A stretch of 38,803 nucleotides of DNA from a virus. The notes beneath the pieces are model-generated. The model saw only the letters and a list, made by a program, of their open reading frames with translations, was not told where the DNA came from and ran no database searches. Positions within the stretch are counted from its first letter, which is position 1, and every line of letters begins with the position of its first letter. The stretch lies in the IMG/VR virus record IMGVR_UViG_3300020473_000061, positions 1-38,803 of that record. One strand, given 5' to 3'. Below, piece after piece: positions 34,470-35,042 of the stretch. Made by a program: the position numbers and the translations under genes.

Positions 34470-34505
34470 CAAAATATCGGGGAAAAAAATCCCGGTATTT
34501 TTTTG
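34470..34505 (+). terminator. Intrinsic terminator before the riboswitch region
   Basis: A stem of about 9 bp, AATATCGGG/CCCGGTATT (one G-U pair), with an A-rich loop is followed by an uninterrupted T run. It ends the transcript of the three preceding genes and isolates the next promoter. Confidence 0.85.
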
Positions 34506-34541: not shown

Positions 34542-34570
34542 TTGACTATATAGTATATCTGTGTTAGTAT
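34542..34570 (+). promoter_or_regulatory. Sigma-70-like promoter for the riboswitch unit
   Basis: TTGACT (34542-34547), exactly 17 bases, then TAGTAT (34565-34570); both are five-of-six matches. Predicted initiation around 34577 is 3 bases before the first conserved base of the RNA element, so the aptamer would be the very 5' end of the transcript. This looks like an early promoter read by host RNA polymerase. Confidence 0.7.
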
Positions 34571-34579
34571 TAACACAAT

Positions 34580-34623
34580 CGTTCAACCTCTTAGGAGGTC
34601 GCAAGTAAGCCGACTCGGAACGG
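34580..34623 (+). ncRNA. Glutamine-riboswitch-like aptamer 1 (glnA / Downstream-peptide type)
   Basis: P1 is CGTTC (34580-34584) with GAACG (34618-34622). P2 is ACCTC/GAGGT (34586-34590 and 34595-34599) with a TTAG loop, followed by the conserved-type stretch CGCAAGTAAGCC and GGAACGG. This order and wording match the glutamine-binding RNAs of cyanobacteria and their phages, which are known to precede short open frames. P3 looks very short here. The element begins at the expected transcript start and precedes a 52-codon frame. Glutamine as ligand is by family analogy. Confidence 0.7.
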
Positions 34624-34631
34624 AATCGTTC
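34618..34631 (+). promoter_or_regulatory. Possible anti-aptamer hairpin GAACG-GAAT-CGTTC
   Basis: The 3' strand of aptamer 1 P1 (34618-34622) is also perfectly complementary to CGTTC at 34627-34631, four bases away. The two pairings exclude each other, giving a ready two-state switch six bases upstream of the ATG at 34638. Confidence 0.45.
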
Positions 34632-34803
34632 ATCCTTATGGAATTACTTCTCGTTAGTCTTTTACCATGTGATTATGCTACTGGTCTTGTCGAACAGATA
34701 TACCGACAGCATACTGAAACACCTAAATCTGAATTAATTCAGATTGTGGAACAGAGTACTGAGAAGGGATGCTTTGAGGACGCAAAAGCCGACTGAAGGA
34801 ACG
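34627..34803 (+). ncRNA. Possible split glutamine-riboswitch-like aptamer 2 enclosing a gene
   Basis: The 5' half CGTTCATCCT (34627-34636) fits the family's 5' consensus. The matching 3' half, AGGACGCAAAAGCCGACTGA followed by AGGAACGG, is at 34777-34804. The two can pair as P1 (CGTTC/GAACG 34799-34803) and P2 (TCCT/AGGA 34777-34780). The whole 52-codon frame lies between them, as an enlarged P2 loop; its stop TGA is inside the 3' half. Alternatively the 3' half is a relic. Confidence 0.4.
34638..34796 (+). CDS. Riboswitch-associated small protein (52 aa)
   Basis: The frame begins MELLLVSLLPCDYATGLVEQ and ends KGCFEDAKAD. It is mostly helical, with a hydrophobic start and an acidic end, and contains two cysteines. 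No Shine-Dalgarno stands at normal distance; the only AGGAGG (34593-34598) is about 40 bases upstream, within P2 of aptamer 1, so translation is probably tuned by RNA folding. Short frames after this riboswitch class are a known theme, and the ELLxxSLxxCxxAxxL start resembles small proteins I recall from other cyanophages. By analogy with glutamine-controlled small proteins of cyanobacteria, such as the glutamine synthetase inactivating factors, a role in nitrogen control is possible but unproven. Confidence 0.7.
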   Translation: MELLLVSLLPCDYATGLVEQIYRQHTETPKSELIQIVEQSTEKGCFEDAKAD

Positions 34804-34837
34804 GGGCTAAAAATCCCTACTACTTTGGAGAAAGCCA

Positions 34838-34981
34838 ATGGCACAAGTTACTTACCGTGGTGTCGAGTATGACACTGAAGAGTACAGAAAAATGCTCATC
34901 AATGAGCATAATCAAACTCGTAATCACGATTTAATGTATCGTGGTATCAAGGTTAGAAGCAAGGCAATACCTTGCAGTTAA
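34838..34981 (+). CDS. DUF4278-like small protein (47 aa)
   Basis: MAQVTYRGVEYDTEEYRK, then a YRG repeat (DLMYRGIKVRSK) near the end: this two-YRG layout resembles DUF4278, a short family typical of cyanobacteria and their phages with unknown function. A GGAG ribosome binding site (34827-34830) sits 7 bases upstream of the ATG. It lies directly after the 3' half of aptamer 2 and a small GGG/CCC hairpin (34804-34817), so it may be under the same glutamine-type control. The strong terminator at 35003 ends the unit. Confidence 0.75.
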   Translation: MAQVTYRGVEYDTEEYRKMLINEHNQTRNHDLMYRGIKVRSKAIPCS

Positions 34982-35002: not shown

Positions 35003-35033
35003 AAGAGAGTCTATTGACAGACTCTCTTTTTTT
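35003..35033 (+). terminator. Intrinsic terminator whose loop contains a promoter -35 box
   Basis: A perfect 10-bp stem AAGAGAGTCT/AGACTCTCTT (35003-35012 and 35019-35028) with an ATTGAC loop, then T's to 35033. It ends the riboswitch unit. The loop and first stem base supply the TTGACA of the next promoter. Confidence 0.92.
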
Positions 35034-35042
35034 GTGTAAAAT
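35014..35042 (+). promoter_or_regulatory. Sigma-70-like promoter embedded in the terminator
   Basis: A perfect TTGACA (35014-35019), exactly 17 bases, then TAAAAT (35037-35042, five of six). Initiation near 35049 is after the hairpin, so new transcripts do not contain it. It would drive the gene at 35062 and thyX. Confidence 0.65.

Follow-up and report, generated by a model that had tools for sequence, protein, structure and literature searches.

The window, as we call the whole stretch of DNA analysed here, is the IMG/VR virus record IMGVR_UViG_3300020473_000061 (positions 1 to 38,803; 38,803 nt). Its nearest records are Kyanoviridae and, judged by sequence, it is a fragment of a T4-like cyanophage. 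An RNA element and the DUF4278 gene that follows it (Table 1) look like a self-contained unit, a short mRNA lying between two terminator-like hairpins, with transcription expected to start near position 34577, immediately 5′ of the first strand of the element. A DUF4278-like ORF occupies the downstream position in 425 of 430 relatives. This domain shows a relationship to the N-terminal portion of IF17, a cyanobacterial inactivating factor of glutamine synthetase (GS), and in hosts the glutamine riboswitches of IF17-type genes switch expression on in response to glutamine (PMC6316151). The DUF4278 coding RNA of the window carries GTGTC...GACAC close to its start, an example of RNA structure, and a further promoter-like sequence, TTGACA-17-TAAAAT (11/12; 35014-35042), overlaps the second terminator 5′ of the next gene.

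Table 1. Features of the RNA element and its transcription unit, in positions of the window.
Feature	Positions	Strand	Basis or remark
Terminator-like hairpin with T run	34471-34501		Upstream of the unit
Promoter-like site, TTGACT-17 nt-TAGTAT, extended TG (-10)	34542-34570	+	Consensus match only
Strand 1, CGTTC, 5′ side of P1	34580-34584	+	Partner strand 4; covariation, pair probability 0.88
P2a hairpin, ACCTC TTAG GAGGT, compact in the window	34586-34599	+	P2a covariation
CGCAAGTA, junction and 5′ E-loop half AGUA (34604-34607)	34600-34607	+	RF01739 consensus alignment, core table
P3 5′ strand, AGCCGACT	34608-34615	+	Antiparallel to 34787-34794; inner-pair covariation
Hairpin 2:3, GAACG (34618-34622) and CGTTC (34627-34631), loop GAAT	34618-34631	+	Covariation, energy
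P2b 5′ strand, TCCTT, start codon directly 3′	34633-34637	+	Partner 34776-34780; covaries across the ORF
Nested ORF, 52 aa, PHROG 504 family, two cysteines	34638-34796	+	RNA is a long rod extending P2b
P2b 3′ strand, GAGGA, within coding sequence	34776-34780	+	Covariation
P3 3′ strand, AGCCGACT, last base is T of the stop codon	34787-34794	+	Covariation
GAA, 3′ E-loop half, overlapping stop codon TGA (34794-34796)	34795-34797	+	RF01739 consensus, core table
Strand 4, GAACG, 3′ side of P1	34799-34803	+	Partner strand 1; covariation, pair probability
GGAG, Shine-Dalgarno for the DUF4278 gene, 7 nt 5′ of its ATG	34827-34830	+	Sequence
Downstream gene, 47 aa, DUF4278 (PF14105)	34838-34981	+	Profile match
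Terminator-like hairpin with T run, end of transcription unit	35003-35028	+	

The preliminary description had placed two aptamers here, and had proposed that a hairpin beside the start codon at 34638 competes with P1 of aptamer 1 and so relays the ligand signal to aptamer 2. The four P1-like strands are present as it claimed, with GAAT between the second and third; we number them 1–4 in 5′ to 3′ order and write n:m for strand n paired with strand m. The canonical set CGTTC/GAACG/CGTTC/GAACG permits either 1:2 together with 3:4, or 1:4 together with 2:3. All four strands are identical to those of the window in 320 of 366 related junctions, which is conservation beyond chance, and the variation that does occur comes in compensated pairs. 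We scanned IMG/VR in full for cores of aptamer 1 in which strand 2 starts with a nucleotide other than G, and obtained 110 genuine viral contigs. Metagenomic contigs are related to one another, so that neither this count nor the others given here represent independent events, and the detection patterns held parts of the cores fixed, so that rarer forms will have been missed. Strands 2 and 3 read CAACG/CGTTG in every one of these contigs. Strands 1 and 4 read CGTTC/GAACG in 92 and CGTTT/AAACG in 9, the C and T types never being mixed, and in the remainder strand 1 or 4 was unreadable, bar one GAACA. Pairings 1:2 and 3:4 are thus mismatched in the variant contigs, while 1:4 and 2:3 are intact, and no single-arm variants for strand 2 were seen anywhere in the full scan. 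Among 303 unique sequences the inner pair of 2:3 is G-C in 252 and C-G in 51 (100% paired), compared with 83% paired for the inner pairs of 1:2 and 3:4. Variation in P1 itself is very small, the nine CGTTT/AAACG contigs reducing to only 2 unique spliced sequences. The swapped strands also occur in a named isolate, Synechococcus virus S-PRM1 (NC_055761.1; CGTTC/CAACG/CGTTG/GAACG), the one match in a search of isolates with spacer TTC; the same search with spacer AG gave no match. In S-PRM1, which its swapped strands make a ready test case, the distance downstream to the next annotated ORF is greater than usual, and that ORF has a YRG motif.

Folding energies favor the same pairs. The unconstrained fold of 34578-34805 contains 1:4 and 2:3 at -64.2 kcal/mol, against -60.5 when 1:2 and 3:4 are forced, and in the window RNAfold assigns a pair probability of 0.88 to 1:4, a mean of 0.84 to 2:3 and 0.002 to 34580-84/34618-22 (1:2). 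The hairpin beside the start codon is therefore real by energy as well as by covariation (303/303 paired), and it excludes the P1 that Rfam gives to aptamer 1; by these pair probabilities it is not merely competitive with that P1 but favored over it. Across 347 unique folded sequences the composite pairs were favored in 98–100% of each group, with 1:2 and 3:4 averaging probabilities of about 0.02–0.04 in the canonical groups, and RNAalifold run on the canonical sequences alone returned 1:4, 2:3 and most of P3. Because RNAfold does not reward P3 (enforcing it in the window gave -60.3, with an energy model that has no E-loop), the assignment of P3 in the window rests on covariation.

That covariation links the two apparent cores. 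In short-type elements AGUCG of core 1 pairs with CGACU of core 2, and in long-type elements AGCCGACU of core 1 pairs with AGCCGACU of core 2 with two C-A mismatches, as in the window. Long-type elements (n = 157) have T-A as their inner pair in 123 sequences, A-T in 28, G-C in 3 and T-G in 2, so that 99.4% are paired versus 67% after shuffling, and the length type of the two P3 strands (long/long or short/short) agrees in 302 of 303 sequences. The E-loop is split in the same manner, its AGUA half lying in core 1 and its GAA half in core 2 with P3 between them. The RF01739 covariance model matches 34578-34626 at 37.5 bits (gathering cut-off 35), which is the first half only, and each half alone scores near the cut-off in the window or in relatives. 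The features of that family are nonetheless found when the halves are read as one: the CGUUC/GAACG P1 is formed by 34580-84/34799-803 and not by the Rfam-drawn pairing, the P2 hairpin that follows CGUUCA is represented by P2a and P2b, both of which covary, and the AGUA and GAA halves of the E-loop flank P3. A tandem riboswitch has two complete aptamers, with a P1, a P3 and an E-loop apiece; here each unit holds half an E-loop, and the pairing is 1:4 with 2:3. From its homology to RF01739, the window RNA is predicted to bind L-glutamine.

The P2 arms come in two sizes. In the 361 junctions that we took from IMG/VR and from named phages, P2 loops are either 11–47 nt or 137–234 nt long, and every long loop holds an ORF (266/266 for P2b, 98/98 for P2a; 364/364 in all). 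The P2a loop contains one in 98 of the 361 junctions, and the P2a/P2b combinations are compact/ORF (188), ORF/ORF (74), compact/compact (57) and ORF/compact (20). Among the named viruses, the region between strands 3 and 4 is a compact hairpin in S-PM2 and P-TIM68 and carries an ORF in P-SSM2, P-SSM7, S-SSM7 and ACG-2014b, as in the window; P-HM1 and marine virus AG-345-L05 have ORFs in both P2 loops. The nested start codon lies 3–7 nt 3′ of CGTTCA (rarely 10 or 15), and the stop codon is mostly in the core or just 5′ of it, with UGA or UAA having bases in common with P3 and the E-loop. Accordingly, the ORF of the window begins at the P2b stem and ends in the P3/E-loop core. As had been noted, it lacks a Shine-Dalgarno sequence directly upstream, where hairpin 2:3 and the P2b strand occupy the site. 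P2b pairing is maintained across the ORF: in 225 dereplicated inserts its pairs 3, 4 and 5 are 100, 97 and 91% paired, versus 89, 69 and 55% with shuffled partners, and over four positions a slid register gives 25–54% paired versus 86% in the true one.

The nested ORFs are under selection as proteins and are unusually structured as RNA. Their dN/dS, at 0.22 over 65 pairs of the P2b family and 0.12 over 28 pairs of the P2a family, indicates purifying selection. All but a few P2a types, which had no match, belong to PHROGs 504 and 6471, both without a known function; the window ORF matches PHROG 504 with an E-value of 5.9e-4, and relatives reach 2.8e-21. Exactly two cysteines are present in all unique nested proteins (256/256 for P2b, 95/95 for P2a), and AlphaFold2 predicts two helices for the window protein with modest confidence (mean pLDDT 73). 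No clear free-standing copies of either family were found among their matches, of which 325/338 and 135/142 are nested and the remainder are at contig ends or are variants. With ends fixed, mean MFE z-scores of nested-ORF RNA were -3.03 (P2b, n = 110) and -3.19 (P2a, n = 26) relative to dinucleotide shuffles, and -2.20 and -2.08, respectively, when the shuffles were synonymous. Coding windows of 153 nt from ordinary genes had a mean z of -0.56 and the downstream DUF4278 ORFs one of -2.25, and strong RNA structure is thus a feature of the whole unit.

Based on these results, it appears that the element is one composite glutamine-I aptamer with the ORF as its P2b arm, rather than a tandem, and that it leads a short DUF4278 phage mRNA; we put the probability of this reading at roughly three in four. 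It follows from the covariation of 2:3 and 1:4, the covariation of P3 across the halves and the split E-loop. The anatomy itself, meaning the helices, the nesting and the coding selection, is strongly supported by sequence comparison. P1 would be 34580-84/34799-803, P2a the first hairpin, and P3 (34608-15/34787-94) a helix between the two apparent cores that would open into an inner junction of hairpin 2:3 and helix P2b, the latter being itself the gene of 52 codons for amino acids. The evidence points to hairpin 2:3 as a permanent helix within this composite aptamer. Of the earlier picture, then, the match of aptamer 1 to RF01739 above the cut-off stands, but neither aptamer is complete, and so there is nothing between which a relay could pass a signal; the relay also lacks support from its pairs, with 1:2 and 3:4 mismatched in 110 contigs and of near-zero probability in 347 folded sequences. 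Pairing 1:4, the common P3 helix and the ORF inside the aptamer had no part in it.

As to how the composite aptamer might work, we propose that once folded it would bind glutamine at the P1/P2a/P3 junction, as homology to RF01739 suggests, and that binding would alter how strongly the DUF4278 gene downstream is expressed, probably raising its level as in the host riboswitches, although this direction is a guess. By eye, no expression platform in which the Shine-Dalgarno pairs with the core or with strand 4 is conserved across the relatives. The anatomy suggests that the nested gene, whose start codon lies buried in the P2b rod, would be translated mainly from nascent RNA, before P2b and P1 close. 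Since a ribosome crossing it would have to melt P2b and would then stop over the ligand core, translation of the nested gene and the folded aptamer may be mutually exclusive. A translation-sensing riboswitch of this kind, a ligand-binding RNA with whole genes as arms from which ribosomes and glutamine exclude each other, is a tentative idea that we hold at somewhat under even odds. If true, it would mean that a virus mRNA reports amino-acid supply and ribosome supply together.

The most viable alternative concerns this last step and is compatible with the composite aptamer. The nested gene may simply be translated before P2b closes, in the manner of the MS2 maturation gene, with glutamine playing no role in its control. 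Ligand is not needed for the P2b rod to be very stable (-35.7 kcal/mol over 138 nt on its own), so that glutamine may add little control of the nested start codon; moreover, the ORF lacks a Shine-Dalgarno, and transcription reaches the second, 3′ half of this helix some 140 nt beyond the start codon. Taken alone, this account leaves unexplained the coincidence of start and stop codons with aptamer elements, and we consider it plausible without leaning towards it. A two-state switch, in which glutamine selects between the composite (1:4, 2:3) and tandem (1:2, 3:4) pairings, could apply to canonical sequences, as the strands are identical in most relatives and both pairings are permitted there. 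The variant contigs and S-PRM1, however, have lost the tandem inner pairs with their cores still intact, and such a switch is unlikely. A tandem of two independent glutamine aptamers, each with its own P1 and with the hairpin between them competing transiently as a relay, would account for the near-cut-off RF01739 score of each half and for the mutual complementarity of the four strands in canonical sequences. This reading is nevertheless very improbable: both P1s are mismatched in 110 contigs that keep 2:3 and 1:4, neither half has a full E-loop or a P3 of its own, unlike the units of true tandems, and 1:2 and 3:4 are rarely populated in predicted ensembles of canonical sequences.

Hairpin arms can be corrected by quasi-palindrome template switching, and the exchange in 2:3 might be a mutational artefact of copying from arm to arm without selection for pairing. 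Only one type of substitution was seen, which is in its favor, but it leaves unexplained why cores stay intact in contigs with mismatches in both P1s, why 1:4 changed independently to CGTTT/AAACG and why distant P3 strands covary, and we give the artefact very little credence indeed. Least credible of all is an ordinary gene between two riboswitches, without a structural role. Small intervening genes are common, and the tandem-riboswitch survey assumed as much (PMC9481103); yet P2 covariation spans the ORF, loop lengths fall strictly into two modes with fixed start and stop positions, and ORF RNA is more structured than synonymous controls. We also rejected nested ORFs as chance frames (an ORF is present in every long loop, and dN/dS is low), a Gln-codon attenuator leader peptide (Gln is 3.0% in nested ORFs versus a 3.6% baseline) and an independent second aptamer of glutamine-II type, which score and core rule out.

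If the composite reading is right, cyanophage "tandem" glutamine riboswitches have been misdrawn, each being a single composite aptamer whose P1 is domain-swapped, and a riboswitch aptamer can carry complete genes as helices. The arrangement is kept in hundreds of related viruses, which may target host nitrogen control through DUF4278, given its relation to IF17. Coupling of translation and ligand sensing on one RNA would become directly testable in abundant marine viruses. Current annotation and tandem surveys set such elements aside, reading an ORF between the units as a separator. Weinberg described glnA RNAs in 2010, including tandem ones (PMC2864571), and the tandem survey admitted only pairs of units without an ORF between them (PMC9481103), so that cases like that of the window would have been excluded. 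Phage papers list glutamine riboswitches, and their available passages contain no description of nested genes (PMC9964418, PMC9004378). Neither the type of riboswitch nor its ligand class is new; the composite fold and the gene within the aptamer apparently are, in that we found no published description of either in a literature covered incompletely for key papers.

Among known systems, the element is closest to glutamine-I (glnA, RF01739), with which it shares a CGUUC/GAACG P1, P2, the AGUA...GAA E-loop, P3 and an association with DUF4278 and nitrogen genes (PMC2864571, PMC6316151). It differs in that P3 is opened into a second junction, that P2a and P2b may hold a whole gene, and that Rfam scores its halves separately. 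Glutamine-II (Downstream-peptide, RF01704) has similar CGUUCA...CGCA...GGAACGG strands and a downstream DUF4278 gene, but the window scores 30.4 (cut-off 33), below its RF01739 score, and the AGUA/GAA E-loop and P3 agree with type I. Tandem glutamine riboswitches, including those at SAR86-type loci, likewise present two adjacent CGTTC...GGAACG units (PMC2864571, PMC9481103). In the true glutamine-I tandems that we found in SAR86-type and other bacterial genome contigs, using a short pattern that returned mostly chance matches, each unit has AGUA, its own P3 and GAA, whereas the units of the window each hold half an E-loop and have P3 in common. Group I and II introns and similar structured RNAs host ORFs in peripheral loops, and so resemble the element in placing a gene in a loop of a structured RNA; unlike them, the window RNA has no self-splicing or nuclease, its gene forms the helix, and its stop codon lies in the core. 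Finally, in the leader of the MS2 maturation gene the start codon is closed by a long-range pairing formed later in RNA synthesis, much as P2b would close the nested start codon, but here the RNA is the mRNA of a DNA phage with a predicted ligand-binding core.
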